DNA from: Beggiatoa leptomitoformis
GTDB lineage: Bacteria; Pseudomonadota; Gammaproteobacteria; Beggiatoales; Beggiatoaceae
Assembly (NCBI RefSeq): GCF_001305575.3
Contig: NZ_CP012373.2
Location: 930,001-994,000, forward strand
Direction of reading: 5' to 3'
Length of the DNA stretch: 64,000 nt
The notes beneath the pieces were generated by a model. That model saw only the letters and a list, made by a program, of their open reading frames with translations. It did no database searches and was not told the DNA's origin. This document shows positions 1,921-33,249 of this stretch, piece after piece; the stretch's first letter is position 1, and each line of letters opens with the position of its first letter. The position numbers were made by a program, and so were the translations under genes.

Positions 1921-1927
1921 GATTATC

Positions 1928-1946
1928 GGGGCGACAAGTTCGCCCC
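1928..1946. terminator. GC-rich hairpin after the DUF349 gene
   Basis: A perfect 7-bp stem (GGGGCGA / TCGCCCC) with a 5-nt loop lies just after the DUF349 stop. There is no strong T tract, so it is either a weak terminator or a member of the GCGAA/TTCGC hairpin family seen at 35549 and 54376. Confidence 0.4.
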
Positions 1947-2170
1947 TCGTAAAACATGTGATAAAAAACACTGCATAGATAGCATGATAGAACAAATAAT
2001 CTCTATATTTTTTATCATCAGTGGATTATAAAGACTGGCTATGATTAATCATGATGCTTCAGCCTGATGCGCATGAACAAGCTAGAAATAACAATGTTGT
2101 GACAAAAATTGTTGAAATAGCTGAAAATTTCAGGCTCAAATACTCATAATCCTCGCGCTATAACCCAAAA

Positions 2171-2413
2171 ATGACCTTTTCCCTCTGGCACATTGCTCAA
2201 GCCGACAAAGTTGCTCGCCCTGTATGCGAAGCGGGTAATAAACACGTTGTATTTGATACATTAGGATTGGCACAAGATTTTATTCGTTTGTTGCCTGAAC
2301 CTACAATGGAAGGAGTCATCGTTATTATTAACGACGATAAAACTGAAATTGTTCATGCAGAAGATTGGCAGGCGTTATTGGCAATTACGCAACAAGACGA
2401 TTTGCAAACTTAG
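2171..2413 (+). CDS. small hypothetical protein, 80 aa
   Basis: Not recognised. The ORF is preceded by about 225 nt of AT-rich DNA without a gene, and its codon use resembles its neighbours. The product is small, acidic and probably soluble, with no signal peptide or membrane segment. The middle (EGVIVIINDDKTEIVHAEDW) looks like two beta strands flanking a turn, and the C-terminus is Gln/Asp-rich. It ends 47 nt before the convergent kinase gene. It could be a real orphan gene; its length and compact folded-looking composition favour that, but there is no family assignment. Confidence 0.5.
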   Translation: MTFSLWHIAQADKVARPVCEAGNKHVVFDTLGLAQDFIRLLPEPTMEGVIVIINDDKTEIVHAEDWQALLAITQQDDLQT

Positions 2414-2460
2414 ATGTAAAGTTAAAAACACCAAATAGATTAATTCTTTTTTAAACAATG

Positions 2461-3558
2461 CTATACAGCTTTTACAAGTTGTAAACTGACAGTTGTTCCA
2501 CCATTTTTGTCTTGTTGTGTATTCACTTGCGACTGAATATGAACCGTTCCCCCATAAGCATTAATCAGTCGTGCAACCAACGGCAAAGCGCAACCTGCCC
2601 CAACTTCTCCTGCTGTTCCCGCTCGTGTAGTGGTTTTGCTCAAATCAAAAAGATGTTGGCAAAGTTTTTCTGACATCCCCATCCCATAGTCATGAATGTT
2701 TAATGCAACAATATAATCATTGAGTGAATAGGCCTGAATCACGATTTGCGTATTAGGGTAAGAAAATTTAATTGCATTGTTTAATATGTAATTTATAACC
2801 TGTTTTGTAAAAGAAAAATTTTCAACCATAACATATAAATGCTCATCAACCTGTAAATCAAGAGTAATTTTTTTCTGATTTAAATTAGCTTGTTGTAAAA
2901 ACATCGCGGTTTTAATGGCTTCTTTTACAGAAACAGCCGATAGATGAACTTCTCTTTCTTGCAACTCACGAATTTCTCTTACATTATCAATTAACTGCAA
3001 TCCATTTTGTGCGGCGGTAAATAAAACATGCTGCATACGCATAAACATGTCATAAGAAAGATTTACACTTAATAATGAAACAATTGCGCTTAATGGTGTA
3101 GAAAGGTCATGACATAATAAATGTAATAAGGCTTTGCGGTCATGATTAATTTGTTGAAGCAACCTGTATGGCATTGTTGATGCCAGTTGTTTTTGTAAGC
3201 GAGCCAATAACTCCCATGATTTAATTGGTTTTACAACAAAATCATCTGCATTTAAATTTATTTCTGTTTGAATAAACGCACTATTTTCATCATCTGTCAT
3301 GAGCAAAATAATGGGAATATGTGCTGTTTTCTGAGTGGATTTTATGTGATTACAAATAGTTATATCGTTTTCTTTCGATGGTAAAATATCTAATAGAACT
3401 AAATCAGGTAATTGCTGGATAAATTGTTCTAAAATAGGTTGGTCTTTTTCTATCGCGTGAATCTGATAATGATTATTTTGCAACAGCGTAGTGATTGATT
3501 GTCGTGTTATTTCATCATTGCTAATCAATAAAATATGAGTCTGTTCAGGTGTTTTCAT
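2461..3558 (-). CDS. soluble response regulator-histidine kinase (REC-HisKA-HATPase)
   Basis: This is a 365-residue protein with no membrane segment. Residues 8-125 form a receiver domain with phospho-acceptor D57 (LVLLD) and the conserved lysine in VVKPI. Residues 139-205 form a HisKA dimerisation helix pair with H150 in CHDLSTPL. Residues 240-362 form the ATPase, with an N box (NYILNNAIKFS), a G1 box (DYGMGMS) and a G2-like loop (GEVGAGCALPL). REC domains placed N-terminal to a kinase are typical of cytoplasmic relay kinases that take phosphate from another kinase, as known for similar architectures. No cognate output regulator is adjacent. It diverges from mnmC, and the two probable start codons are only 33 nt apart, so their promoters must overlap the opposite coding ends. 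Confidence 0.85.
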   Translation of the reverse strand: MKTPEQTHILLISNDEITRQSITTLLQNNHYQIHAIEKDQPILEQFIQQLPDLVLLDILPSKENDITICNHIKSTQKTAHIPIILLMTDDENSAFIQTEINLNADDFVVKPIKSWELLARLQKQLASTMPYRLLQQINHDRKALLHLLCHDLSTPLSAIVSLLSVNLSYDMFMRMQHVLFTAAQNGLQLIDNVREIRELQEREVHLSAVSVKEAIKTAMFLQQANLNQKKITLDLQVDEHLYVMVENFSFTKQVINYILNNAIKFSYPNTQIVIQAYSLNDYIVALNIHDYGMGMSEKLCQHLFDLSKTTTRAGTAGEVGAGCALPLVARLINAYGGTVHIQSQVNTQQDKNGGTTVSLQLVKAV

Positions 3559-3591
3559 TCGTTAGCTAAGTCGGATAGTTGTACAGCAAAT

Positions 3592-5634
3592 ATGGGACAT
3601 TATAAAAATCTTTCTGTGAACAAACAATTATACAACGCAATTATTCAATGGGATGCGGACGAAAATCCTTATACCCCTCAATTTCAAGATATCTACTACG
3701 CACAACAAGGGGGATTAGCAGAAACTGAGTTTATTTTTTTATTGCATAATCAACTATATAAACGTTGGCTAACCCATGATTTTACCACTCGCCCGTTTGT
3801 GATTGCAGAAACAGGATTTGGAACAGGCTTGAATTTTTTAGCTACATGGCAAGCTTTTTTGCAACAGTGTTCTGATACAAACGGTATTTTACATTTTATT
3901 TCTGTAGAGCAATTTCCTTTATCGCAAGTTGACATAACCCGTTCATTGGCAAAATGGACAAGTCTTACTACTTATCGCGATGAATTATTAGCTGTTTACC
4001 CACTGGCAATTTATGGCTGGCATCGTTTTTCTTTTGCAAATGGTCGGGTCGTTTTAACGCTGGGTTTAGGGGATGTAAACGAATTGTTGCCTAGTTTATA
4101 TGCCAATACGGAAACAGGATTGGTGGATGCGTGGTATTTAGATGGTTTTTCCCCCGCAAAAAATCCAAGTATGTGGCAAGCCAGCTTGTTTGAGCAAATG
4201 CAACGCTTAAGCCGAGCAGATGCCAGTTTTAGCACCTTTACCGCTGCGGGTTCAGTTCGGCGTGGATTGCAAGCAGTCGGGTTTTGCGTCAATAAAGTTG
4301 CGGGTTTTGCGGATAAACGGGAAATGCTTTGCGGTCATGCCCCTAATCCAAAACAACCAATACTATCTACAAAATCCACCATGCCCGCATGGTTTCGCTA
4401 CCCCGCTTTAACGACGGATAAACACCATGCCGTTATCATCGGCGCGGGATTAGCAGGAACAGCAACCGCGCAAGCACTGAGTCAACGGGGTTGGCATTGC
4501 ACCTTGCTTGAGGCGCAAGCGGAAATTGCTTTGGGTGGCTCAGGCAATCGGCAAGGAATTTTATATCCTTTACTTTCTGCAAGTTGGGATGATTTACCAA
4601 CCCAGTTTTATCTTACCGCTTATCAATACGCAAGGTATCTTTTACAGCAGTTAAATAAACAAGCCTTTGTTTTTGAAGCCTGTGGGGTTTTACAGTTAGC
4701 AGGTGATGTAACGGCACAAATGCGTTTTGAGAAAATTGTACAAACCTTGCAACTCCCGCCTGCATTTGTTCAGTGTGTATCAGCAACACAAGCACGATTA
4801 TTAGCGGGTGTAGAACTGACACAAGCAGGTTTATTTTTCCCGCAAGCGGGTTGGGTTGCAACGGCGACCGTTTGTCAGCAACTTTTAAACAAAGCCCGCC
4901 AACAGGCAGATGTCCAATTAAAATTAAATAGTTATGTTGCCAATTTACAGCGGACAACAGAGGGGTGGCAAGTGCTGGATGCCGAAGGGCAGCTATTGGC
5001 ACACGCGCCAACGGTTATTTTTACTAATGCGAGTGGTTTTCAAGCCTTACCGTATGCTCAGGCGTTGCCTTTACAAACAGTACGCGGACAGGTGAGCTAT
5101 GTAGCATCAACAATGACGAGCCAAACATTAGCAACCGCTGTTTGTTATGACGGTTTTATAACGCCTGCATGGCAAGCACAGCATGTTGTGGGAGCAAGTT
5201 ATGATGTGAACGCCAGTCGTGCGTTTATTTCGGCTGCGGATAATCAAGCGAATTTGGCTAAGTTGCGGGCGGTATTACCTGATGTCGCAGCCAGTATTGG
5301 TTCGTTTGTTTCTGCACGCAGTGCTGTCCGTTGTAGCAGTCTTGACCATTTGCCATTAATTGGAGCATTACCTGATTATGCGCTATTTATGCAAAATTAC
5401 GCAGATTTACAACAGGGTAAACGAGCATCTTGTTATACCGCGCCTGTGTATCATCAAGGTTTATATGTAAATCTAGCGCATGGTTCGCGCGGTTTATTGT
5501 CGGCTTTATTTGGTGCAGAAATAATAGCGAGTTTGTTAAACCATGAGCCGTTACCGCTTTCGCAGCGGGTTTTAGAAGCCCTTGCGCCACAACGTTTTTG
5601 GGTAAGGCAGTTAAAACGCGGCTCATCGGCTTGA
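3592..5634 (+). CDS. mnmC: bifunctional tRNA mnm5s2U34 biosynthesis protein MnmC
   Basis: MnmC finishes the wobble modification 5-methylaminomethyl-2-thiouridine. The FAD-dependent C-terminal half removes the carboxymethyl group, and the N-terminal half methylates with SAM. The N-terminal methyltransferase shows the glycine-rich motif ETGFGTGLNFLA and the catalytic-region sequence WYLDGFSPAKNP. The C-terminal half opens with the dinucleotide-binding motif VIIGAGLAGTATA and ends with the DAAO-type segment GLYVNLAHGSRGL. The frame is open upstream to an ATG at 3535, but that lies inside the divergent kinase gene. The ATG at 3592 (MGHYKNLSVN) matches where the family normally begins and is preferred, giving 680 residues, the usual size for a fused MnmC. 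Confidence 0.93.
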   Translation: MGHYKNLSVNKQLYNAIIQWDADENPYTPQFQDIYYAQQGGLAETEFIFLLHNQLYKRWLTHDFTTRPFVIAETGFGTGLNFLATWQAFLQQCSDTNGILHFISVEQFPLSQVDITRSLAKWTSLTTYRDELLAVYPLAIYGWHRFSFANGRVVLTLGLGDVNELLPSLYANTETGLVDAWYLDGFSPAKNPSMWQASLFEQMQRLSRADASFSTFTAAGSVRRGLQAVGFCVNKVAGFADKREMLCGHAPNPKQPILSTKSTMPAWFRYPALTTDKHHAVIIGAGLAGTATAQALSQRGWHCTLLEAQAEIALGGSGNRQGILYPLLSASWDDLPTQFYLTAYQYARYLLQQLNKQAFVFEACGVLQLAGDVTAQMRFEKIVQTLQLPPAFVQCVSATQARLLAGVELTQAGLFFPQAGWVATATVCQQLLNKARQQADVQLKLNSYVANLQRTTEGWQVLDAEGQLLAHAPTVIFTNASGFQALPYAQALPLQTVRGQVSYVASTMTSQTLATAVCYDGFITPAWQAQHVVGASYDVNASRAFISAADNQANLAKLRAVLPDVAASIGSFVSARSAVRCSSLDHLPLIGALPDYALFMQNYADLQQGKRASCYTAPVYHQGLYVNLAHGSRGLLSALFGAEIIASLLNHEPLPLSQRVLEALAPQRFWVRQLKRGSSA

Positions 5635-5639
5635 GTTTA

Positions 5640-5772
5640 TGATAGTGCCAAATCAAGCTTACGATTTTGTCACTATCAATGTTAGAAATAAACCAGATAT
5701 TACTGTTTTAAAAGATATTGCACGATTTTTGCGGATGGTTTAATTCCGAAAATACCAATTCGGACAATTTTT
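5640..5772. terminator. two hairpins between the convergent genes mnmC and 5775-6713
   Basis: An imperfect hairpin with 8-bp outer arms (TGATAGTG at 5640, CACTATCA at 5671) is followed by a smaller stem (TCCGAA at 5745, TTCGGA at 5759) and then CAATTTTTC. The second, followed by a T run on the plus strand, could end mnmC transcription. Both calls come from inspection only. Confidence 0.4.
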
Positions 5773-5774
5773 CT

Positions 5775-6713
5775 TTACAACTGTTTAATTGCCTTACTTA
5801 TCAATCGTATTCGTGCAATATTCCATTCTAAAATTTGTAGTGTATCTGCTGGGATTTTTCCTTGATAAATCTGTGCAACAGGTGTAATGACATTGGTTAA
5901 TCCTAAATAGGCTTTAATAACTTGTAATTCCGCAAGGACAAAACCTGTCATTCCAAAGGTTTCTGTCGGTGTAATTTGTTGAATAGAGTTTCTTTGATAA
6001 ACATTGATATTAAGGTTTATTTTGTTTATGTTCAAATGGGTTTGAATTTCTTGCATTTCTTTAATGAGTGTTAATCCTGCATTGAAAACATCGACTGGAA
6101 GAACGTTATCTTTTTTAGGGGGTGGCAAGGTACTATCCGTTAATTCTAAGGCATACAACAGGGCATCAATATCGTAATGAATACGCATTGCTTGCCCGAA
6201 AACGTGAGACGGTAAGAAGCTTGTGCCAGTGAATGCGTCTAATTCATAAAGTATTTGATTCAGCGCGTTGTAATTATCCAACTGGGTTTTTTTGGTAAAA
6301 ACAGGCGGTGGGGGGATTTCTGTTTTTATATCAAAAACGCGCTTTAACAAAAATAGTTCTGTCCGAATACGACAAACTTGTTCATAAATAACCGCTGTTG
6401 ATACGTCCTTTTCAGGTTCTCGAGAAGGAATATTCAATCGTGGTAAATTATATTTTTCATGGATATGATCTAGTTTGAAAAGTATTTGGTAGGTTTTTTG
6501 CCACGTGAGGCGTGGAACAACTTGTAGGGTAACTTGTGGTGGTATAATTTCTTTATCTATTTTAAGATATTGTTTTATAATGTTTAATTCTTGTTGTACA
6601 TTATAAATTTCTGTATAAGTGTCGTCTATACTGATTTCGCTAGCCTTTGCAACGGATAAGATAGCCAGTAATAGACAAGTGGTAAAAAATCTCAATTGGG
6701 TAATATCAATCAT
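5775..6713 (-). CDS. secreted protein of four helical repeats, unknown function
   Basis: Not recognised. The ATG at 6713 begins MIDITQLRFF and is followed by a hydrophobic stretch ending VAKAS, a plausible Sec signal peptide. An in-frame upstream ATG at 6743 lies inside the preceding gene, and an AAGGGG ribosome site precedes 6713. The mature part appears to be four copies of a roughly 65-75 residue helical unit, at about 25-95, 100-165, 170-235 and 245-312. Each has the pattern h..El..iK..L.i, then an IPP/LPP turn, then a helix ending in ..iL.eLd. Examples are NIIKQYLKI, FLLKRVFDI, LLYALEL and QVIKAYLGL. The start lies 1 nt after the stop of the upstream 161-aa gene, so the two are co-transcribed. 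Confidence 0.65.
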   Translation of the reverse strand: MIDITQLRFFTTCLLLAILSVAKASEISIDDTYTEIYNVQQELNIIKQYLKIDKEIIPPQVTLQVVPRLTWQKTYQILFKLDHIHEKYNLPRLNIPSREPEKDVSTAVIYEQVCRIRTELFLLKRVFDIKTEIPPPPVFTKKTQLDNYNALNQILYELDAFTGTSFLPSHVFGQAMRIHYDIDALLYALELTDSTLPPPKKDNVLPVDVFNAGLTLIKEMQEIQTHLNINKINLNINVYQRNSIQQITPTETFGMTGFVLAELQVIKAYLGLTNVITPVAQIYQGKIPADTLQILEWNIARIRLISKAIKQL

Positions 6714-6714
6714 T

Positions 6715-7200
6715 CTAAAACCCCTTTTCTTTGCATAGTACATCTAATTCTCGCCATTTTTTTCCCCGACTATAATTAGCCGCAATGTTTGGTGCTATTT
6801 GTTCTATAAGTGTTTGGTGCATTCCTAAGCGTTTAATTCTTTTCTTGAGAATAGCCCCCTGTTTATTTTCTTCAGCAACCATACCCGCATAAATAACGGT
6901 AAACCAAATCGCAATTTCTAAACTATCTACTTGATATTTTTCTGTTAATTGTAATATTAGGGATAGCACATCAGGGTTAATTTGTGCATTTGTTTTTTCA
7001 TAAATCGCTATATAATCATCATATAAAGATTGAAAACCATATAATTTTCCTAATATTTGCAATCTTGCAAAATAGTATGTATCTGATGGTGCATAACGCC
7101 GTTGAGCAGGACGGTGTAAATAAACGCACCAATCATCAAAGCGTCCACTGTCAAAGGCAACAGTGCTGCCATCATTAAATGTTTGAATCAATCTTTGCAT
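6715..7200 (-). CDS. hypothetical protein, 161 aa, first gene of a two-gene operon
   Basis: Not recognised with certainty. It is a soluble-looking alpha/beta protein with no signal peptide. The N-terminus MQRLIQTFNDGSTVAFDSGRFDDWCVYL reads like a short beta-rich head that recognises its own product, a style seen in small DUF families. It is followed by helices through YYFARLQILGKLYGFQSLYDDY and a basic region near the C-terminus (KKRIKRLGMHQ). It is tightly coupled (1-nt gap) to the secreted repeat protein downstream. The pair has no other gene on the same strand nearby. Confidence 0.6.
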   Translation of the reverse strand: MQRLIQTFNDGSTVAFDSGRFDDWCVYLHRPAQRRYAPSDTYYFARLQILGKLYGFQSLYDDYIAIYEKTNAQINPDVLSLILQLTEKYQVDSLEIAIWFTVIYAGMVAEENKQGAILKKRIKRLGMHQTLIEQIAPNIAANYSRGKKWRELDVLCKEKGF

Positions 7201-14868: not shown

Positions 14869-14971
14869 AATGATGACATCCCCCGTTTCAACTCTTAGAC
14901 TTAATGAGACAACGTTTTTTTTAACGCCTTAATGGCAACACACACATCACAGAATAATGAGGAGTATCTGC

Positions 14972-16099
14972 ATGAGTAAAAAAGGATATTGGGCTTTATG
15001 GGCGATATTACTCTTACCACTATCAATGCCCCTGTATGCAGATAAAAATGACGACGAGGCAGACCCAGAAATTGTCAAAAAAGCCGTGACTTGGGCAAAT
15101 GGTGACTATTTTGATGGTGAATATGAAGGTAAAGAACGCTCTGGCTCAGGCGTTTATATCTGGGCAAATGGCGACAAATTTAAAGGCGACTTCTACGAAG
15201 GCAAGCGTGATGGCTCAGGGGTTTATACATGGGCAAATGGCGACAAATATGAAGGCGACTATGCTGAAGATAAACGCGATGGAGAAGGCACTTACACATG
15301 GGCAAATGGCGACCAGTTTAAAGGCGAATTTAGCGAAGGCAAACGTGGACAAGGTAAACTCACCAAATCAGCCGTTCCCCCTGTAAAACCCGCACCCGTT
15401 GCAGAAAAACCCGCCGCAACAACCCCACCTGTTACAACAGCCGCCAAAGAAACCCCCGAAACCAAAGAGACCAAAGACCCCAGTGCCTCCACAAAACCGA
15501 TAGAACCCAACAAATCAACGCCCCCCCCTGTCGTTGCTAAAGTCACGCCACCAGTTGCCAATAAACCAATTACCGAAGCGAAAACCACCAACGACAACAT
15601 CGTCAAATTCACCTGGCCCAATGGCGACAGCTACGAAGGTGAAATAGTTGACGGTCAACGCACAGGCAGAGGCATTTATACATGGAAAAACGGAGATAGC
15701 TATCAAGGCGACTTCACCAATGGTATTCGTGAAGGAGAAGGCATTTACCTCTGGAAAAATGGCGACCGCTACGAAGGCGATTTTGCAGCTAACCGTCGCG
15801 AAGGTAAAGGCACTTACCTGTGGACAAACGGCGACCGCTACGAAGGCGACTTTATTAACGGCACACGTCATGGCAAAGGCATTTTAACTTGGGCAGATGG
15901 CGACCGCTATGAAGGCGAATTTTCCAAAGGAAAGCGCACAGGACAAGGCATTTACACCTCATCAACAGGTGACCGTTATGAAGGGGGTTTTGTAGATGGA
16001 AAACGACACGGCAAAGGCAAACTCATTACAGATGGTGTTGAAGAAGCCGTAGAATACAAAAATGGTATTTTAACTGACCATGCAAAAGCTGAGAAATAA
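14972..16099 (+). CDS. secreted MORN-repeat protein (ten repeats)
   Basis: The ATG at 14972 is preceded by GAGGAG and begins a signal peptide (KKGYWALWAILLLPLSMPLYA). Four MORN repeats of 23 residues with the pattern WaNGDkyeGdf..GkRdG.G.Y lie at about 40-130. A Pro/Thr/Lys-rich linker (about 135-205) and six more repeats (about 210-350) follow. Because all repeats share WxNGD and YEGDF codons, the DNA itself is a 69-bp near-repeat. MORN sheets usually bind lipids or act as structural scaffolds; a periplasmic or cell-surface scaffold is inferred here. The stop is 1 nt before the ispH start, so the two genes are co-transcribed. Confidence 0.85.
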   Translation: MSKKGYWALWAILLLPLSMPLYADKNDDEADPEIVKKAVTWANGDYFDGEYEGKERSGSGVYIWANGDKFKGDFYEGKRDGSGVYTWANGDKYEGDYAEDKRDGEGTYTWANGDQFKGEFSEGKRGQGKLTKSAVPPVKPAPVAEKPAATTPPVTTAAKETPETKETKDPSASTKPIEPNKSTPPPVVAKVTPPVANKPITEAKTTNDNIVKFTWPNGDSYEGEIVDGQRTGRGIYTWKNGDSYQGDFTNGIREGEGIYLWKNGDRYEGDFAANRREGKGTYLWTNGDRYEGDFINGTRHGKGILTWADGDRYEGEFSKGKRTGQGIYTSSTGDRYEGGFVDGKRHGKGKLITDGVEEAVEYKNGILTDHAKAEK

Positions 16100-17270: not shown

Positions 17271-17288
17271 CCGTCATTGCCTTGTCAT
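17271..17288 (+). promoter_or_regulatory. Pho-box-like site upstream of the secreted nucleotidase
   Basis: CCGTCAT (17271-17277), four bases, then TTGTCAT (17282-17288) reproduces the PhoB architecture of two 7-bp direct repeats at an 11-bp period. Each half differs from CTGTCAT at one base. TAAAAA at 17299, 10 nt downstream, could be the -10. Placement 66 nt before a secreted phosphatase gene fits PhoB control (inference). Confidence 0.5.
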
Positions 17289-17354: not shown

Positions 17355-20300
17355 ATGACTCAAGGCATTATGAGAAAACAGGCTTGGCAATGGTTAATCA
17401 CAAGCGGTTTGCTTGCGTTTGCCCCTGTAAGCCTTGCCGAGATGACGATAACAGAAGTAGGACGTTATCAAAGCAATTTATTTGCGCAGGGCGGCGCGGA
17501 GATTGTCGCGTTTGATTCAGTGAATAAACAAGTGTTTGTGGTGAATTCTGGTCTGGCTCAAATAGACGTATTGAGTTTAAACACCATAGCAACCCCACAA
17601 AAAATTAGCACGATTGATGCGAAAGCGTTAGGCGCGGGCGCAAATAGCGTGGCAGTGAAAAATGGGATTGTTGCAGTTGCCATTGAAAACGTGGATAAAC
17701 AAGCGAATGGTCTCGTGGCTTTTTATGACAGCACTACCTTAAAACTGCTAAAAACCGTCACCGTTGGCGCGTTGCCTGATATGGTAACTTTCAGCCCCGA
17801 TGGTAAAACGGTATTAGTTGCCAATGAAGGCGAACCAAACGCCGATTATACCGTTGACCCTGAAGGCTCTGTTAGTATCATCGATATTAGTCATGGCGTG
17901 GAAAATGCCGTTGCCAAAATTGCGGATTTCTCTGCTTTTAATACGCAAAAACAGCGATTATTAAACAAAGGCGTGCGGATTTTTGGAAAAGGTGCAAATG
18001 TCGCTCAAGACCTTGAACCTGAATATATTACCGTAACAGCCGATAGCAAAACCGCGTATGTCAGTTTACAAGAAGCTAACGCGCTAGCAATTATAGACAT
18101 CGCCAATGCAAAAGTGTTGGATGTCGTGCCATTAGGTTATAAAGACCATAATCAAGGTGCGCCCAGTTTACAAACGTTCAACTTTCCCGAAATGCCTGAT
18201 TTAAATACCAGTGCAATGGGCGAAACGGTAAAATTAGGCGGTTTTTCGGGCCTACATTTTGAAGGTGTAGATAGTGCGACGGGCAATTATAAGTTTGTCA
18301 CCATTCCCGATAGAGGACCTGATGCAGGTTTAGTTGATGTAGATGGTGATGGTGTACAAGAGCGGATTTTTACCATTCCGCAGTATCAAATCCGCGTCGT
18401 GCGTTTTGAAGTTAATCCACAAACGGGTGTCGTACAAATCACCCAACAAATCCCCCTAACTCGCCAAGACGGCACGACCCCCATTACAGGATTACCCAAT
18501 ATTGCAGGCGCAGATGAATCCCCCGCCGAGCAAGTACCCAGTAATGGACAGTTTACCATTGAGGGCAAACAGTATAATAAACTAGACTACGATATCTTTG
18601 GTGCTGATTTGGAAGGTATCGTGATTAATCCCGTAGATAACTCATTCTGGATGGTTGACGAACAACGTCCTGCCATTTATCACTTTTTAGCAGATGGCAA
18701 ATTAGCGAATCGTTTTGTACCACAAGGCACAGACCCTGAAGGACAAGCGCGTTATGGTGCAGAAACGTTACCTGCAGTTTATCGTAAACGGGTAAATAAT
18801 CGCGGGTTTGAAGCGGTTGCGTTAGATACTGAACAAAATATTCTTTACGCCTTTATTCAAACACCTTTAGCCAATCCAAACATGGCTGCGTCGAATGCTT
18901 CTACCGTTATTCGCATGTTAGGCATTAATCCTGATACGGGTGAAACCGTTGCAGAGTATGTGTATTTATTAGAAAAACCTGTGGTACGTGGAAGCGTAGT
19001 TGACAAAATTGGTGATGCAACCTATGCAGGCAATGGTCAATTTTATGTGGTAGAACGCGATTCTGATTTAACGGCCAACAGTATTAAACCTGTGTATAAA
19101 ATTGATTTAAAAGGGGCAACAAATTTATTAACCAGTAATATCAATTTATTACCTGATTTAACTTTAGAACAACATACGCCCGACCAATTATCTAGCGTGG
19201 GTATTCAAGCAGTACACAAACGCAAAATACTCAATTTACCCTCTATAGGCTATTTACCCAGTGATAAATCCGAAGGCTTAACTGTTTTACCCGATGGAAA
19301 ATTAGCCGTATTAAGTGATAACGATTTTGCTGCAAACCCAGAAACAGCACAAATTCAAATGGGTCTTATCAGTTTTGGCACAAATTACGGATTAGATGCC
19401 AGTGATAAAGACGGGATGATTAATATCCGTAATTGGCCAGTGTTAGGCAGCTATATGCCTGACTCTTTAGCGAATATTGTTATCAATGGTAATACCTATA
19501 TTGTCACTGCAAACGAAGGCGATTCGCGTGATTACGCAGGTTTTAGCGAAGAGGTTCGTATCGGCAGCAGTAAAGTGGTGTTAGACCCCATTGTCTTTCC
19601 TAATGCCAGTGATTTAAAAACCGATGAACAACTGGGACGCTTAAAAATCACCAATACACAAGGTGATATAGACGGCGATGGCGATTATGATGAACTCTAT
19701 GCTTTTGGTGCGCGTTCATTTTCTGTATGGGACAATCGCGGCAATTTAGTGTACGACAGTGGCGACCAGTTTGAACGCTTTACCGCCGAATTACTGCCAG
19801 ACTTTTTTAATACCAGCCATGACAACAACAAATTTGATGACCGTAGTGACGACAAAGGTGTAGAACCTGAAGCCATTGCCGTTGGAGAAGTAAACGGACA
19901 ACCTTACGCATTCATAGGCTTTGAACGCTTAGGTGGAGTAGCTGTGTATAACCTCAGCAATCCACACGCGCCCCAATTTGTTGATTATGTCAATAACCGC
20001 CACTTTGCAGTTACCCCTGAAGCAGGTGCAGATACAGGCGATTTAGGCCCTGAAGGTTTTTCATTTGTTCATGCCTCACAAAGTCCCACAGGACAAGCCC
20101 TATTAATTATTGGTAATGAAATCAGTGGTTCAACAACTTTATACCAATTGGGCGACAGTGCAACAGCCGTTACATTACCCAATTTAAACACGGGTGTTGC
20201 GACAGATGCGCAAGGGCAACATGTTGATAAACAGACAAGTTTTGCGGGTGGTATTTCCGTTAAACAAACCGCGTTTGACAAGGCTGTTGGACAAAAATTA

Positions 20301-22349
20301 GCGGATAAAGCAACCGTGCGTGGACGGATTTATGTCGACCCCGCCGATGTGGGTAAAGTTGCAGATATTGTGGTGTACGCAGCTTATAAACCCATTTTAG
20401 CGGCTAATTCGCCCACTGTGCCCGCTAACTATTTTATGCTAAATGCCCAAAACCAAATTGTGACATGGGATGGCAAACTCAGCACATTAAGCGCGTATCA
20501 AACTAATCTCACCCTGAGTGCGCAACAAGATGTTTTACTTTACGATGCGAATTGGCTGGTTTCAGGCTATTTAGAACTATCATTCGGCTACCGTTTACAA
20601 GATGGAACATTAGTTTTAAGTGGCACACCCATTACTACAACCATTAACGACACACCTGTCGTTGCACTACGGACTAGTTTGATTCACATCAACGATTCCC
20701 ATTCCCACTTAACCGAAGAAACCATCGATTTAAATCTGAATGGCAAAACAACACGGGTCAACATGGGCGGTTTCGCACGGGTAGCGACTAAAATTAATGC
20801 CCTGCGGAAAACAGCAGAAAATCCACTAGTGTTGCACATAGGCGATGCGGTAGTAGGTACTTTGTACTACTCCTTATTCAAAGGTGCAGCAGATGCAGCC
20901 GCTTTAAATACCATCAAATTTGACGCATTAACACTGGGAAATCACGAATTTGATGATGGCAATGCTAATCTTGCCCAATTCCTCAAGCAACTCGACAATA
21001 TTCCTGCCTTATCCGCCAATATCGATGTCTCCCAAAGTGCTGACTTAAAAGACTTGGTTAAACCTTATTTAATTAAAGAAATCAATGGACAAAAAGTTGC
21101 CTTAGTAGGGATTACCACATTAAAAACCCTCGTCAGTTCTTCACCCGGTGCAGATATTACTTTCAGTAACGAAGTAGAAGCTGCAAAACAAGTGGTTGCT
21201 GAACTAGAAGGCATGGGGATTAATAAAATTATCTTCATGACCCATTATGGCTACACACAAGATATTGAACTGGCTAAACAAGTATCAGGTATAGATGTTA
21301 TTTTGGGGGGTGATTCCCATACATTACTTGGTAACTTTAGCAATATAGGCTTAAGTTCCGAAGGTGCGTATCCCACCATTGCACGCACACCCGCAGGCGA
21401 AAAAGTGTGTATTGGGCAAGCATGGCAATATGCTTATGTTGTGGGTTTTATGACGGTTGATTTTGATGATGCGGGCAATGTGCTGTATTGCGATGGTAAT
21501 CCAACCCTATTGTTAGGAGATAATTTCTTACAAGCGGATGCCGCAGGCACTTTTGTTGCGGTTTCTGACGCAATGAAAACACAATTAAGTCAACTGATTA
21601 ATACCCAGTACACCGCTGAAATTGTGCCAGAAAATAGCGATATGGCAGGTGTTTTATCCCTATTTAGCGAACAAGTTAATGTTCTAAAACAATCTGTTAT
21701 TGGTAAGGCAACGGATAGTTTATTACACATTCGCATACCGGGGAAACACACTTCAGGCGTAGAACTGTCACACGGTAGCATGATTGCACCTGTGGTTGCT
21801 GAAGGTTTTTATCAACAACTGAAAACCCGCAACTATAACCCTGATTTGATACTCCAAAATGCAGGGGGTGTCCGTGTTGACCTGCCACAAGGTGACATTA
21901 CAGTTGCAACAGCTTACACGCTCTTACCGTTTGGCAATACGATTTATGTCTTAGACATGACAGGCGCGGAAGTAAAACAAGCGATAGAAGACGGCTTGAG
22001 CAATTATTTTGACAATGCAGGCTCAAGCGGTTCATTTCCATACGCTTATGGGATTCATTACACGGTTGACATGAACAAAGCCAACGGCGAGCGCGTCACC
22101 AGTTTAGAAGTGATGAGTAAAACGGATGGGACATATAGCGTAATAAACCCAGAAAGTTTATATCGGGTTGGCGTAAATTCATTTATGGCAACAGGCGGAG
22201 ATGGTTATACCACCTTGAAAAAGGTAGCGGCTGACCGTCGTACCGATACCTACTTTGATTATGCAGAATCATTTGTGAATTATATGAAAGCTGTTGGCAC
22301 AATCAGTGCGCCAACTAGCTATAATTTAACCTATATTCCCAAACAATAA
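17355..22349 (+). CDS. secreted choice-of-anchor I / phytase-like / 5'-nucleotidase fusion
   Basis: This is a 1664-residue protein with a signal peptide (cleavage near A28; an alternative ATG at 17370 also works). Residues 30-265 and about 679-930 read as one choice-of-anchor I propeller (LPDMVTFSPDGKTVLVANEG; later GLDASDKDG...TANEGDSRDY). The two parts are split by a roughly 410-residue esterase-like phytase domain (GGFSGLHFEG, FVTIPDRGPDAG). Residues 1108-1400 form a calcineurin-type phosphoesterase with metal ligands in NDSHSH (D1114, H1116), HIGDAV, GNHEFD (N1196, H1197), FMTHYG and GGDSHT. Residues 1450-1660 form the 5'-nucleotidase C-terminal domain (LQNAGGVRVDLPQGDIT, LPFGNTIY). It probably releases phosphate from extracellular nucleotides and other esters. 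No C-terminal anchor motif is seen. Monocistronic, with its own terminator. Confidence 0.85.
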   Translation: MTQGIMRKQAWQWLITSGLLAFAPVSLAEMTITEVGRYQSNLFAQGGAEIVAFDSVNKQVFVVNSGLAQIDVLSLNTIATPQKISTIDAKALGAGANSVAVKNGIVAVAIENVDKQANGLVAFYDSTTLKLLKTVTVGALPDMVTFSPDGKTVLVANEGEPNADYTVDPEGSVSIIDISHGVENAVAKIADFSAFNTQKQRLLNKGVRIFGKGANVAQDLEPEYITVTADSKTAYVSLQEANALAIIDIANAKVLDVVPLGYKDHNQGAPSLQTFNFPEMPDLNTSAMGETVKLGGFSGLHFEGVDSATGNYKFVTIPDRGPDAGLVDVDGDGVQERIFTIPQYQIRVVRFEVNPQTGVVQITQQIPLTRQDGTTPITGLPNIAGADESPAEQVPSNGQFTIEGKQYNKLDYDIFGADLEGIVINPVDNSFWMVDEQRPAIYHFLADGKLANRFVPQGTDPEGQARYGAETLPAVYRKRVNNRGFEAVALDTEQNILYAFIQTPLANPNMAASNASTVIRMLGINPDTGETVAEYVYLLEKPVVRGSVVDKIGDATYAGNGQFYVVERDSDLTANSIKPVYKIDLKGATNLLTSNINLLPDLTLEQHTPDQLSSVGIQAVHKRKILNLPSIGYLPSDKSEGLTVLPDGKLAVLSDNDFAANPETAQIQMGLISFGTNYGLDASDKDGMINIRNWPVLGSYMPDSLANIVINGNTYIVTANEGDSRDYAGFSEEVRIGSSKVVLDPIVFPNASDLKTDEQLGRLKITNTQGDIDGDGDYDELYAFGARSFSVWDNRGNLVYDSGDQFERFTAELLPDFFNTSHDNNKFDDRSDDKGVEPEAIAVGEVNGQPYAFIGFERLGGVAVYNLSNPHAPQFVDYVNNRHFAVTPEAGADTGDLGPEGFSFVHASQSPTGQALLIIGNEISGSTTLYQLGDSATAVTLPNLNTGVATDAQGQHVDKQTSFAGGISVKQTAFDKAVGQKLADKATVRGRIYVDPADVGKVADIVVYAAYKPILAANSPTVPANYFMLNAQNQIVTWDGKLSTLSAYQTNLTLSAQQDVLLYDANWLVSGYLELSFGYRLQDGTLVLSGTPITTTINDTPVVALRTSLIHINDSHSHLTEETIDLNLNGKTTRVNMGGFARVATKINALRKTAENPLVLHIGDAVVGTLYYSLFKGAADAAALNTIKFDALTLGNHEFDDGNANLAQFLKQLDNIPALSANIDVSQSADLKDLVKPYLIKEINGQKVALVGITTLKTLVSSSPGADITFSNEVEAAKQVVAELEGMGINKIIFMTHYGYTQDIELAKQVSGIDVILGGDSHTLLGNFSNIGLSSEGAYPTIARTPAGEKVCIGQAWQYAYVVGFMTVDFDDAGNVLYCDGNPTLLLGDNFLQADAAGTFVAVSDAMKTQLSQLINTQYTAEIVPENSDMAGVLSLFSEQVNVLKQSVIGKATDSLLHIRIPGKHTSGVELSHGSMIAPVVAEGFYQQLKTRNYNPDLILQNAGGVRVDLPQGDITVATAYTLLPFGNTIYVLDMTGAEVKQAIEDGLSNYFDNAGSSGSFPYAYGIHYTVDMNKANGERVTSLEVMSKTDGTYSVINPESLYRVGVNSFMATGGDGYTTLKKVAADRRTDTYFDYAESFVNYMKAVGTISAPTSYNLTYIPKQ

Positions 22350-28182: not shown

Positions 28183-31100
28183 TTACCGCCACTCCGCCAA
28201 ATCAGCACGCATAATGCGAATTTTCTGCAACAACATTTCTCGTTTCAGATTAAAGAAAATCATACTCACCGTAATACCACCTCCTAATAAAATCAGAATA
28301 ATGGCTTTGCTTAAACGGTCTTCTGGGTAAAACTGCACGAGTTGTCCTAACACATTAATCATCAAAAATACGATACCTGCATACAAAAAAGCACGGGTAC
28401 GTAAAGCGATACCTAAAATAATTCCGCCCATACTTAAGCCTAACGCCAATATAAAAAAACTCAATTCAGGACGTAAAAACACATCCGTTGTTGCGCTGGT
28501 ATAAAGGACAGTTAAAGCAAGCAATCTCAAATTATGATTAATAGTCGTTCTTAACTCTTGCGTGTGAATATACGTCATTATCAACACAGTAATTGCCGCT
28601 GGGAGTACGTATAGTTGAACTAAATGCTGTTGCTGTGCTAATGCAGGTATCCAAAGATAAAGTGCGATATTTAATAAAATCATCGCTAAATAAAGCGGTA
28701 AAACCGTTTTCATCTGATTTTGCAAGAAAAAATAATAGACTGCTCCCGTAAATAATAATAACGTGATAGCGGTTGAATCGCTCACAGTCAATAAGGGAAC
28801 AAGCGCAATACAGGGCAACAACAGATTAAGTCTATCCAAGACTTTTAACTGAATGAAATAACGACTAAATAAACTACCATAAGCGGCAAGCATCAACGCA
28901 ACGCTGTCCCACAACGTTAATGAGCTAAATCCAAAAAGCGACATACGGCTATAAATGGCTAAAATTGTTATTAAAAATACAATGCCAATAAACTTCTCTG
29001 TTGGTTCTACCCTATACGCTTGCCAAAGCGCGATAAAAATCCCCCCCGTTAAAAATAATATTCCACTGTCAACGACTCCAAAAAGAGGCTGATTTACCAG
29101 TAAATTCGCAACCAACCCAACAGCCCATAAAACCAGCGTGCTAGCGGTTATAAAAGGAATTAACCATTCCAGTTTTAACTGATTAAACCAATTATCTTCC
29201 GTCGCTTTTAGCATAGGAAATAGTGTAAGTAGCACACACAACAGCACGGCATTTTGTAGCGCGTAATAAGGCAACACTGCCCACAACGTTGTTGCAGGAA
29301 GGAAAAACCAAAGCAGATGTAAGGCGACCAATCCCCCCAAAATCCCTACATTAAACCACGTTGTATCACGCTGCTGCCCACCAATAGTTAAGGCTATCCC
29401 ACTGATAATGCTAAATGTAATTAATTGCTGTGGCAAACTGACCGCCAATAAAAATAGACTAATGATTGCCATGATTAAAGTCAGAAATAACCATACTTCA
29501 CATTCTTTTATCCGATAGCCTAACTGTAATAATCCGAATAATAACAATGCCCATAAGGCAAAAATACTCGGCGCGGTCAGGACAAACAAGGTAACACTCA
29601 AACTATAAAACGTACCAAACAACGCAAGAAATAAAAGATGCGTAAATAAAGAACGATTATTCTCTGCATGACTTTGTTGTTGCAGTAACCAAAAATAGGC
29701 GGCGACAGTCAACATAATTTGCCATGCAATCTGTCCTGTTTGTAAAAAATTCACCACAGGTAATGCAAAGAGAACAAAGAAACTAAGCATAAATGTGATG
29801 GTTGGGTCAATCGCCCATAAAGCAAACAATCGGTTAAACCAAGGCAAACCGTAATAAGCCAAGCCCAACAAAACAAAAGGCAGTATTAACCAAGCAAATT
29901 CATTACCTTGTGGAAATAAAACTAACACAATCGCCAATAATTGCAACGGTAAGAAAATACCGCGCCAATGTAGCGCATCTTTTGCTAACCATTGAAAAAT
30001 AGGTAGTTGCGCGACAACCAAACCGCCAAAAACATACGCCAACCAGATTGAAGTCATTGGAAATTGCCACACTAACAAACTCAGCGCGTGCAACAAGACA
30101 TAAGCATATAATAAGGTTGCTGTATAATATAAAGGCTTATAATACAAATCACTAAAAACAGGGGATAAGCGTAATGGATACGTCACGCCGACTAAAGCGA
30201 CGGCAATGCCTAACAGAATGGTGAGAACTTGCGCAAGGTCTAAGGCAAATAGCGTGGGTAAGCCGATAAAACTTAATAAACTAATGGTAATCGTCAATAA
30301 TGCAGCATAACTCAATGCAATATAACGATAATATCTACCTAAAATCACAAAATAAAGCGTACTCAGTATAAAAATAGCGGTTAGTACCCCATCCCCAAGG
30401 TGTGGAAAAAGGAGCGCGTAACTTAAAGAAGCCCCTTGCACGCCAATCAATAAGAACAGCGTGCTATAAAACACCCATTGCATGGCTCGTGTGTATCCAC
30501 CACGTTGTCCGTACCCACCTTGCCAACAGAGTAACTGCGTGAGGCGTGGATGAAAAAATTGTAAGCCAATGAGTGCCGTTAACCACGCGCCCAAGGCATA
30601 GCAAGCCAAGAAGAAACAAAAAACCAGCGGTTGCACATCACTAAAAATCGGCACAAGCACTAATCCCAACCAGAACAAAACCGCAGGTAAAAGCCATAAT
30701 TGGCGCGTTTGCCCCGCCATTAATAAGGTAATAACCGCTTCTAAAACCAGTAACAAACTCCCTGTAGATAAAATGGAAAGGGGCAACAGCAAATAATGCA
30801 ATAATCCAAAAATACCAACGCCCCATAAAATTATCGTACTGATTTGGCAAGGCGGAATTAATAACGTAAAACGGTCTGCTGTGCGAGCTAAAGGCATCCC
30901 TAAGAATAACAATGGCTCTAAATGAATATCATGCACTAACAAGCGTTGTTGCAAGCGTTGTAATCCCCAAGTTACCCACCACAAAACCAATGTTACTAGC
31001 AACAAAGCGAGTAAATTCGTCTGTGGGAAGAACAACAACTTACTAACCACAACAACGCCCGTGATAAACAATAACCCGCTGTAAAAAAATGCCCTAACCC

Positions 31101-33249
31101 GCACAATCCAGCCAATACTCAATAATAAACTGGCAAATCCACTAGTAACCGCTAACGATAATAAAATATCGTGTGTATTAAGGCTGATAAAAATACTGAT
31201 TAAACCACTAAGTATGCCTGCCTGCATAAACCACACGGGGGCATAAGCGGGTTTAAGCCACTTAGAAAGACTAATAACCGTCCATATCAGGCTTAATAAC
31301 AAGAAAAGTAAGGTAAATTGTACAGATACGGTTAAGGTGGGTAATAATGGAAAATAAATGCCATTCAAAGTCACTGCACCAATAAACCCTAATGTTTTCA
31401 TATAAGGCGAAGTGTTTCTGCCTTTAGATAACAAGAAAATTAACAACGATGCGGACAAACTGGTGATTAACCCGATAACGCTAGGGTGAGCGTAGTACAA
31501 ACTCCAAGCCAATACACTGAATAATAAAACTAATAAGGTACGATACGTGATAACAATAAATCGTGGTGACTCACGGCGACAGGCTAAACGGTACAACTGC
31601 CACAAAGCGACAAATAACGGTACGCTGGCTAAAAAATGTTCATCAGGGGTGAAATGCACTAACACCACCTGCCAATACCAAACAACGCTTGCAGCAAGCA
31701 GTAAATACAGTGGCGATAACGTCAAATACCGCCAAACCATTGCCGCATACAGCCCAATGGCTAAAGATAAAGTCGGGATAAACCACGCGCTGGAGTAACT
31801 TAACACAATGGCAGTGACTGACAGGGCATAAATCAAAAACGTAAAATAATTAATAATAGTTTGTTTAAATTCATCACGATTCGCACAACTGTCCACATAA
31901 AATAACAACACACAAACCAACATCAACAAACCACCTGCATAACCCACAGGTAAGGTTAAACCACTGCTAACGGTCAAATGAACGAATGAAATCAACGCCG
32001 CATACAACAAACTGCCAACAGTAAAATACGTTAATAAATCGGCATCTAAAAATAAGGCTTTTAACCAACCCTGCGTAAAGCGTAAAAAAGCGTAACTTAA
32101 GCCCGCTAATAACAAAATATGTAAAACTGCCAAGAAATACCAAGAATTCATACTACTAACTAACGGTAATGCAAATTGTAAGCCCGCTAAAAATAAGAAT
32201 AAACGTGGATATTCTTTTAAAGACTGCCGTTCTAAACTACCGCTTGCAATTTTTAGGGCAAACAAAAATCCCCCCCACAAACCCACAGCACAGAGTGTTG
32301 CAACGGCTAATAATGCAAAGTTTCCATCACTAGTCATAAATAAACGCACAGCGGCGGCAAAATTTAGCGGAATTAAGAAAATCCCTAAAAAATTTAAAAC
32401 TTGATGGGAAATTAATAATTCAGGACGCTGGCGACGAATCTGATAAGCTCCCCATAAAATCAAGAGCGTATATAATGCCAAACAAAACAACACGGCTAAC
32501 CCGTTTGCAAATCCATCGGTATAAGCAACCAATAAACCAGAACCTGACACAAAACAAAAACCACCAACGAACCAGCCGATATTTTGCCAAATGAAAGGCA
32601 ATAAAATTTGACGTGTAAAGACCTGCAACCGATTGATTAATGATGGTGTTGTCGGAGTTGTTTTTGGAGAGGGTAATGGTTTTACAATGCGCGGTTTTAC
32701 AGTTGCTACGGTTTGTTTAATCACAACAGGATTAACACGGGGTTTAGGAATAACAACCGATGCAGGCAAAGTAACGGCGGGCGGTAAGGTAACAGGCGCA
32801 AGCGTATTGTCAAGTTCCTTAATTAAATCATCAATATGCTGAGTATTTGTCTGGGGCGACTCTGTCTCAAGCGTTGCTTGCTGCTCCCAACAAGGTGTTT
32901 GTTGTGGTCTTAATAATTGCCAAGCATCTGTTAGACGACGATTTTTTTCTATTTCATCAATATAATGATAATGGACAAGACTTTTACAACGTGCTTCAAT
33001 CTTCGTTAATAAGTCTTGATACTCAGCAGGCGTTACTCGCCATTGCTTATGATTGCTACGTAATTCAAAGTAGAACGTTAATAAGTCAAATAGTTCTCGT
33101 CGTTCAGGCGCAGTTTTCGGTTTTTCATTAACGCCTGATTTAGTGCTTGATTGCCAAAAAAAGGTAATCAGCCCTAATGGGATAGCAATTTGTATGGGTA
33201 ATAGCGAAAAGTAGAGGAAAATAAAGATAAATTTACAAAGCCATTGCAT
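28183..33249 (-). CDS. giant polytopic membrane protein, 1688 aa, unknown function
   Basis: Not recognised. It is one uninterrupted frame. A hydrophobic N-terminus (LCKFIFIFLYFSLLPIQIAIP) is followed by a soluble section. This is charged helices at 35-145 (ERRELFDLLTFYFELRSNHK) with a Pro/Val/Lys-rich linker (about 165-215; KPRIVKPLPSPKTTP). From about residue 220 to 1670 the sequence is almost continuous hydrophobic segments of 18-22 residues with very short polar turns, probably more than 40 membrane helices. No signature of permeases, polymerases or known channels is evident. Leu, aromatic and Trp content is high. The C-terminus is basic (KREMLLQKIRIMRADLAEWR). Long runs of helices suggest an internally duplicated architecture. 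It is flanked by hairpins and is monocistronic. Confidence 0.75.
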   Translation of the reverse strand: MQWLCKFIFIFLYFSLLPIQIAIPLGLITFFWQSSTKSGVNEKPKTAPERRELFDLLTFYFELRSNHKQWRVTPAEYQDLLTKIEARCKSLVHYHYIDEIEKNRRLTDAWQLLRPQQTPCWEQQATLETESPQTNTQHIDDLIKELDNTLAPVTLPPAVTLPASVVIPKPRVNPVVIKQTVATVKPRIVKPLPSPKTTPTTPSLINRLQVFTRQILLPFIWQNIGWFVGGFCFVSGSGLLVAYTDGFANGLAVLFCLALYTLLILWGAYQIRRQRPELLISHQVLNFLGIFLIPLNFAAAVRLFMTSDGNFALLAVATLCAVGLWGGFLFALKIASGSLERQSLKEYPRLFLFLAGLQFALPLVSSMNSWYFLAVLHILLLAGLSYAFLRFTQGWLKALFLDADLLTYFTVGSLLYAALISFVHLTVSSGLTLPVGYAGGLLMLVCVLLFYVDSCANRDEFKQTIINYFTFLIYALSVTAIVLSYSSAWFIPTLSLAIGLYAAMVWRYLTLSPLYLLLAASVVWYWQVVLVHFTPDEHFLASVPLFVALWQLYRLACRRESPRFIVITYRTLLVLLFSVLAWSLYYAHPSVIGLITSLSASLLIFLLSKGRNTSPYMKTLGFIGAVTLNGIYFPLLPTLTVSVQFTLLFLLLSLIWTVISLSKWLKPAYAPVWFMQAGILSGLISIFISLNTHDILLSLAVTSGFASLLLSIGWIVRVRAFFYSGLLFITGVVVVSKLLFFPQTNLLALLLVTLVLWWVTWGLQRLQQRLLVHDIHLEPLLFLGMPLARTADRFTLLIPPCQISTIILWGVGIFGLLHYLLLPLSILSTGSLLLVLEAVITLLMAGQTRQLWLLPAVLFWLGLVLVPIFSDVQPLVFCFFLACYALGAWLTALIGLQFFHPRLTQLLCWQGGYGQRGGYTRAMQWVFYSTLFLLIGVQGASLSYALLFPHLGDGVLTAIFILSTLYFVILGRYYRYIALSYAALLTITISLLSFIGLPTLFALDLAQVLTILLGIAVALVGVTYPLRLSPVFSDLYYKPLYYTATLLYAYVLLHALSLLVWQFPMTSIWLAYVFGGLVVAQLPIFQWLAKDALHWRGIFLPLQLLAIVLVLFPQGNEFAWLILPFVLLGLAYYGLPWFNRLFALWAIDPTITFMLSFFVLFALPVVNFLQTGQIAWQIMLTVAAYFWLLQQQSHAENNRSLFTHLLFLALFGTFYSLSVTLFVLTAPSIFALWALLLFGLLQLGYRIKECEVWLFLTLIMAIISLFLLAVSLPQQLITFSIISGIALTIGGQQRDTTWFNVGILGGLVALHLLWFFLPATTLWAVLPYYALQNAVLLCVLLTLFPMLKATEDNWFNQLKLEWLIPFITASTLVLWAVGLVANLLVNQPLFGVVDSGILFLTGGIFIALWQAYRVEPTEKFIGIVFLITILAIYSRMSLFGFSSLTLWDSVALMLAAYGSLFSRYFIQLKVLDRLNLLLPCIALVPLLTVSDSTAITLLLFTGAVYYFFLQNQMKTVLPLYLAMILLNIALYLWIPALAQQQHLVQLYVLPAAITVLIMTYIHTQELRTTINHNLRLLALTVLYTSATTDVFLRPELSFFILALGLSMGGIILGIALRTRAFLYAGIVFLMINVLGQLVQFYPEDRLSKAIILILLGGGITVSMIFFNLKREMLLQKIRIMRADLAEWR

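Follow-up and report, generated by a model that had tools for sequence, protein, structure and literature searches.

The locus lies in a 64,000-nucleotide stretch of the Beggiatoa leptomitoformis genome (contig NZ_CP012373.2, positions 930,001 to 994,000), which we call the window; the genome itself is 4.27 Mb in one contig. The list of open reading frames confirms a 1664-residue frame with the coordinates and length first noted, and its parts are collected in Table 1. Elsewhere in the window, positions 14957-16099 encode a protein whose WxNGDxYEG repeats, resembling MORN units by eye, form two blocks separated by a Pro/Thr/Lys-rich linker, and a 1688-residue frame on the minus strand (28183-33249) consists, by eye, largely of hydrophobic membrane spans.

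Table 1. Features of the nested-propeller gene and its upstream region (positions in the window; residue numbers refer to the encoded protein)
Feature	Position	Strand	Basis
Pho-box-like direct repeat, two 7-mers with a 4-base spacer	17271..17288	+	Consensus match
Open reading frame, nested propellers and NadN-type nucleotidase	17355..22349	+	ORF list, Pfam, NCBIfam
Likely Sec signal peptide, residues 1-28	17355..17438	+	Read by eye
Outer choice-of-anchor I propeller, N-terminal half, residues 29-264	17439..18146	+	PF22494/NF038117, model, fold search
Inserted Phytase-like propeller (PF13449), residues 266-678	18150..19388	+	Pfam, model, fold search
Outer propeller, C-terminal half, residues 679-935	19389..20159	+	PF22494; forms a single 7-bladed propeller together with the N-terminal half
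Linker or undescribed domain, residues 936-1103	20160..20663	+	No Pfam match, low pLDDT
NadN-type NAD/5'-nucleotidase module, residues 1104-1660	20664..22334	+	TIGR01530, PDB 3ztv alignment

The N-terminus, read from the sequence, has a basic start, a hydrophobic core and SLA before E29. The outer propeller scores far above the cut-offs of both family models, Pfam choice_anch_I (PF22494; E 1.1e-136, 457 against a cut-off of 32) and NCBIfam choice-of-anchor I (NF038117; 570.9 bits against 300). The match does not form one continuous domain and falls in two stretches split by the insert, making this a nested variant of the family. The Phytase-like family PF13449 is matched at residues 293-658 (E 2.2e-47, 162.7 against a gathering threshold of 27.6) over profile positions 2-284 of 284, followed by Metallophos at 1109-1323 (E 7e-10) and 5_nucleotid_C at 1473-1622 (E 1.8e-32). 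All three families that the earlier note had named for searching are thus matched. Its placing of the insert between two propeller motifs also stands: LGYKDH occupies residues 260-265 and GLDASDKDG residues 679-687, with 413 residues between them. That the two motifs otherwise follow each other directly is nearly exact, since un-nested relatives mostly join them by a loop of 5-8 residues (for example LGFKD-HSLPG-NGLDASD), and nested relatives usually carry 400-450 residues at this loop. A stretch of about 170 residues (936-1103) separates the outer propeller from the nucleotidase module; Pfam finds nothing in it up to E 0.01, AlphaFold2 gives it a pLDDT mostly below 50, and among the relative loci searched phmmer matches it only in the orthologue from the same genus.

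Structure prediction, which the earlier note had proposed as a check, favours the nesting. AlphaFold2, run on residues 29-1104 together with 42 nested relatives, produced a model with a mean pLDDT of 81.8; residues 29-934 mostly exceed 85, and the part beyond them lies largely below 50. The best structural matches of this model by VIA-align are single propellers, most of them presumably 7-bladed. YncE (7seu_D) aligns over 292 residues of its 315-residue chain (Z 32.4, rmsd 2.3), and WDR5 over about 294 of its roughly 305 residues, with the aligned range of the model running from 1 to about 906. Since a single propeller of about 300 residues uses both ends of a 906-residue stretch, the middle must be looped out. 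The model therefore supports a discontinuous propeller of the 7-bladed type over residues 29-934, with the insert nested in it, and not one non-nested fold. Modelled alone (266-678), the insert reaches a pLDDT of 91.6 and a pTM of 0.92. Among the small propellers that VIA-align matches to it are YjiK (226 residues aligned at Z 20.2 and rmsd 2.6) and glutaminyl cyclases (Z 17.1-19.4); lower in the list stand the human calcium-activated nucleotidase/apyrase (232 residues at Z 13.8) and DFPase (Z 13.2-13.4). We read these as likeness of fold only. Foldseek gives low TM-scores for the whole two-propeller model and for the insert alone (0.2-0.6), and a search of PDB sequences with the insert profile returns no related chain (best E 0.45). 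PhoX does not appear among the 50 matches that VIA-align lists for each model, that of residues 29-1104 and that of the insert, which is an absence only.

The name Phytase-like calls for care. We tried the insert as a true beta-propeller phytase and rejected it, as PF02333, the family of proven phytases, is not matched at E up to 1. The same Pfam library does find PF02333 in one relative locus (L098), where a true phytase sits between the propeller and the phytase-like domain. 'Phytase' is thus a family name here, and true phytase activity of the insert is unsupported by its sequence; our literature search found no test of phytate as a substrate of PF13449 proteins, nor any biochemistry of that family. 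The insert is 45-61 % identical over 58 aligned relatives, 50 of which are nested, and many of its Asp, Glu and Arg residues are invariant across 59 sequences. The host genome also encodes a second, stand-alone phytase-like protein in a 350-residue frame (PF13449, 136.8 bits; L032:3766-4815).

The C-terminal module can be named more exactly. Both a metallophosphatase and a nucleotidase C-domain are present, as first described, and together they correspond to an NAD nucleotidase of the NadN type, scoring 462.3 bits against the TIGR01530 equivalog cut-off of 436 (E 2e-138); the same-genus orthologue scores 465.6 bits. NadN uses two metals, cuts NAD to NMN and AMP and then dephosphorylates mononucleotides. 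The module aligns over 556 residues, nearly end to end, with PDB 3ztv (E 5e-112), NadN of Haemophilus influenzae, and HINDSHS, GDA, GNHEFD, the His of THYGY, GDSH and NAGGVR, motifs whose residues have catalytic or metal-binding roles in NadN, align with it. Despite this near-full-length likeness the contexts differ, 3ztv being a nucleotidase alone and the Beggiatoa module being fused behind a nested propeller and lying behind a Pho box. Two other proteins of the host's family combine a NadN module above the cut-off with an un-nested propeller and a phytase-like domain that is a distant relative of the insert in the window. Their order is phytase-like, propeller, NadN in L028 (495.9 bits; frame 1911-6935) and phytase-like, NadN, propeller in L027 (482.7 bits; frame 1359-6572).

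To estimate how widespread the nesting is, we scanned genome contigs of 84,980 species with the junction as query and kept the best 80 of 165 relatives. Among these 80, 60 are nested, a count biased towards nesting because the query held the junction, 6 are tandem (propeller, then phytase-like domain), 11 have the phytase-like domain but no match to the propeller, and 3 are incomplete. The nested proteins come from seven phyla (37 Cyanobacteriota, 9 Bacteroidota, 5 Pseudomonadota, 4 Planctomycetota, 3 Chloroflexota, 1 Verrucomicrobiota and 1 Ignavibacteriota), and they share with the Beggiatoa protein the same insertion site and the same insert family. An artefact of one assembly is rejected by these relatives and by the same 1664-residue protein in a second genome of the genus. 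The propeller profile, used without the junction, gives a different picture within the host's class, where 40 of 369 genomes match. By our reading of the match rows, 3 of the 40 are nested, the propeller falling into two parts separated by 1.1-1.3 kb within a single long frame (G000, G184, G295). In 29 the propeller runs through without a break or with one of no more than about 0.2 kb, in contrast to the 413-residue break at the KD-LDAS loop in the window, and the remaining 8 are too fragmentary or weak to classify. Seven of 36 genomes drawn from the host's family (25 genera, the figure also given for Beggiatoaceae in GTDB by PMC11172852) have the propeller, nested in two, both of the host genus. 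From these sequence comparisons the nested design is widespread in bacteria and rare in the host's class, and the fusion, called unusual in the earlier note, is unusual within that class but not in general.

We scanned 48 of the 60 nested proteins for fusion partners, setting aside 12 that were near-duplicates, ran into a contig end, were split or were leftovers by length. All 48 match PF22494 and PF13449. A 5'-nucleotidase C-domain occurs in 20, Exo_endo_phos in 16, PhoD in 3 and PhoX in 3, and RTX repeats are present in 20. The extra modules of the relatives thus differ from the one in the window: their best-scoring nucleotidase models are PRK09419, and the best NadN E-values in the 48 are 3e-26 and 2e-35 compared to 2e-138 in the window, so that their nucleotidases are of other kinds. 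As judged from these matches, the combination of nesting and a NadN-type module is seen only in this genus, in two genomes. One architecture found along the way (L069:5173-10896, L072:4797-10517) has, in one chain, a nested propeller and behind it another propeller of that family, this one un-nested.

A single scan of viral contigs with a 93-residue junction query returned no relative, and no link to a phage or virus is supported. Of 72,556 plasmid records, 455 hold a match, none covering 80 % of the query. On plasmids we observed an un-nested choice-of-anchor I gene near genes for a RelE/ParE-family toxin and an HTH regulator on a 19.7-kb mobilizable Acinetobacter baumannii plasmid (L161:1836-3725), and a Deinococcus propeller that looks circularly permuted, with the second part of the profile coming first (L157:2124-3725).

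Trees were built separately for the outer propeller (73, 48 and 27 of 84 rows after thinning) and for the insert (78 and 43 of 96). In the insert tree the nested rows cluster, and a single nested clade is not rejected (quick tree, p-AU 0.71). In the 48-row outer-propeller tree, nested proteins as one clade are rejected (lnL 119 lower, p-AU 6e-5) and the starred branches force at least three changes between the nested and un-nested states. It is the wider family that drives this rejection; architecture defined which rows were labelled nested, and the quick tree had been seen before the test. Together these results suggest that insertion or loss at this site probably took place more than once in the family, gain and loss being indistinguishable on an unrooted tree.

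The position of the Beggiatoa gene itself is less clear-cut. In the first quick outer tree it fell inside un-nested, mostly gammaproteobacterial rows (SH-aLRT 96). In the careful tree, grouping eight un-nested rows without it costs nothing (p-AU 0.535), and in the 27-row tree six un-nested rows lie on one side of a branch supported at 73/72, while the six together with the gene and its orthologue are supported at 99/99. The careful trees leave the gene at the edge of the un-nested group, and both gain and loss are possible for it; the idea that its outer propeller is demonstrably foreign to the insert is weakened accordingly. We tentatively hypothesize, giving the idea somewhat less than an even chance, that one phytase-like domain has repeatedly used the LGxKD-LDASD loop to enter or leave the propeller. 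The inserts would form one family and the outer propellers would be mixed with un-nested ones, the domain having moved in or out of this exact site several times and rebuilt exported multi-phosphatases. In the host genus it would have entered, or stayed in, a propeller near the local un-nested type, joined to a NadN module that also stands beside un-nested propellers of the host's family.

Upstream of the gene, the candidate Pho box agrees with the consensus CTGTCAT-N4-CTGTCAT at 12 of 14 positions, ends 66 bases ahead of the ATG, and is the only match with at most two mismatches in the window. The same-genus orthologue has a Pho box 62 bases before its ATG, likewise with 12 of 14 positions, and the genes around the two loci differ. 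Dinucleotide shuffling gives p 0.005 for each gene, the floor with 200 shuffles. Genome-wide we counted 40 matches with at most two mismatches in the host compared to 21 for the reversed pattern, and 27 compared to 18 in the same-genus genome; half to two thirds of such matches may therefore be due to chance. We opened nine stretches around 13 of the 67 sites. Two lead into PhoX, one per genome, with overlapping matches that form three repeats each, and one leads, in the host, into a gene like those for phosphate-binding proteins (PF12849); these three served as positive controls for the box. Two more, one per genome, lead into a CBS-histidine kinase (L150:618-1952 (-), L153:1616-2962 (+)), and the other four show no evident phosphate gene, one of them (L155) having a two-component pair at the site.

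Among the relatives, none of five pseudomonadotal genes has a significant Pho box upstream, and four upstream regions from Planctomycetota have none. Cyanobacteria have their own Pho-box-like consensus of three repeats, which reaches p<=0.05 in 13 of 36 cyanobacterial upstream regions (7 nested, 6 tandem), giving a Fisher value of 1e-10 in which near relatives are not independent; the proteobacterial pattern is found in 1 of the 36. The cyanobacterial pattern is not fully specific, as it also occurs in 2 of 9 Bacteroidota regions (Fisher 0.003) and in the sole Verrucomicrobiota region (p 0.02).

Taken together, we consider it likely that the gene encodes an exported protein with several enzyme modules, which belongs to the phosphate-starvation (Pho) response and scavenges organic phosphate. 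Phosphate limitation would lead a PhoB-type activator to the upstream repeat and switch the gene on, and the protein would be exported by its putative Sec signal, to judge by the look of its N-terminus. If it works like the known enzyme, the NadN-type module would split NAD into NMN and AMP with two metals and then take phosphate off mononucleotides. The inserted propeller, rich in invariant acidic residues, may be a second, probably metal-dependent phosphoesterase acting on other organic phosphates, and the outer 7-bladed propeller would serve as the scaffold that displays it, possibly with a catalytic or substrate-binding role of its own. Freed phosphate would then enter through a Pst-type uptake system. 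The proposal starts from what is observed, namely the domain content, the nesting, the NadN match with its motifs, the Pho box in two orthologues and the repeated fusions to phosphoesterases. We also count in its favour that the two boxes lie in differing neighbourhoods, the reshuffling of modules in the host's family, the cyanobacterial boxes and Nodularia nsp7010 (below). The scavenging role put forward in the earlier note thus appears supported, now with a conserved Pho box as well. Against it we count the unmatched PF02333, the chance Pho hits, the four opened stretches with no evident phosphate gene, the exact architecture being found in two genomes only, the five pseudomonadotal relatives and the incomplete specificity of the cyanobacterial pattern. 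Haemophilus NadN also counts against it, serving NAD salvage rather than phosphate supply.

In an alternative, the protein would mainly salvage NAD and nucleosides: NadN would supply nicotinamide riboside or adenosine to be taken up, with the propellers holding or concentrating substrate. A module above a curated cut-off with conserved motifs, fused to a propeller in L027 and L028 as well, fits such a role. The Pho box in both orthologues does not, nor do the 48 nested relatives scanned, whose partners are nucleotidases of other kinds, nucleases, PhoD or PhoX, with no NadN near the cut-off, and we regard salvage as unlikely to be the main function. We think it less probable still that the propellers are non-catalytic, forming a calcium-binding surface or a part for adhesion or matrix, with NadN as the sole enzyme. 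Propellers are common binding folds, the fold matches include binding proteins as well as enzymes, calcium-binding RTX repeats accompany 20 of the 48 nested relatives, and the literature found holds no proven enzyme activity for choice-of-anchor I. However, the invariant Asp, Glu and Arg residues of the insert speak more for an active site than for a passive surface, and many of the fused partners are phosphoesterases.

Scavenging under phosphate limitation has possible parallels elsewhere. An atypical alkaline phosphatase of Synechococcus elongatus was reportedly described by Ray in 1991. The PF22494 search matches S. elongatus, and that enzyme may be of the choice-of-anchor I kind; S. elongatus is not among the PF13449 matches, so that a nested insert is not indicated there. 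In the available parts of two reports, Nodularia nsp7010, annotated as an atypical alkaline phosphatase or as esterase-like activity of phytase family protein, shows raised expression in the stimulon of phosphorus limitation (PMC9846622; PMC3610870). It resembles the present protein in its phytase-family annotation and in being raised under phosphorus limitation. Psip1 represents a family of propeller phosphatases in which some members carry a phytase-like domain (PMC11098088). This combination of a propeller phosphatase with an added phytase-like domain is similar, although the family is a separate one and the available part of the paper does not mention nesting. We found no description of the nested design in the open-licence PMC literature on these domains and their fusion, and no papers there on 'choice-of-anchor I'.

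Present in seven phyla and often joined to partners that release phosphate, the design of one propeller threaded whole into another seems to represent a large class of exported phosphatases that is undescribed in the literature found. It allows the function of two uncharacterised domains to be tested directly, and it bears on which organic phosphates filamentous sulfur bacteria can use.
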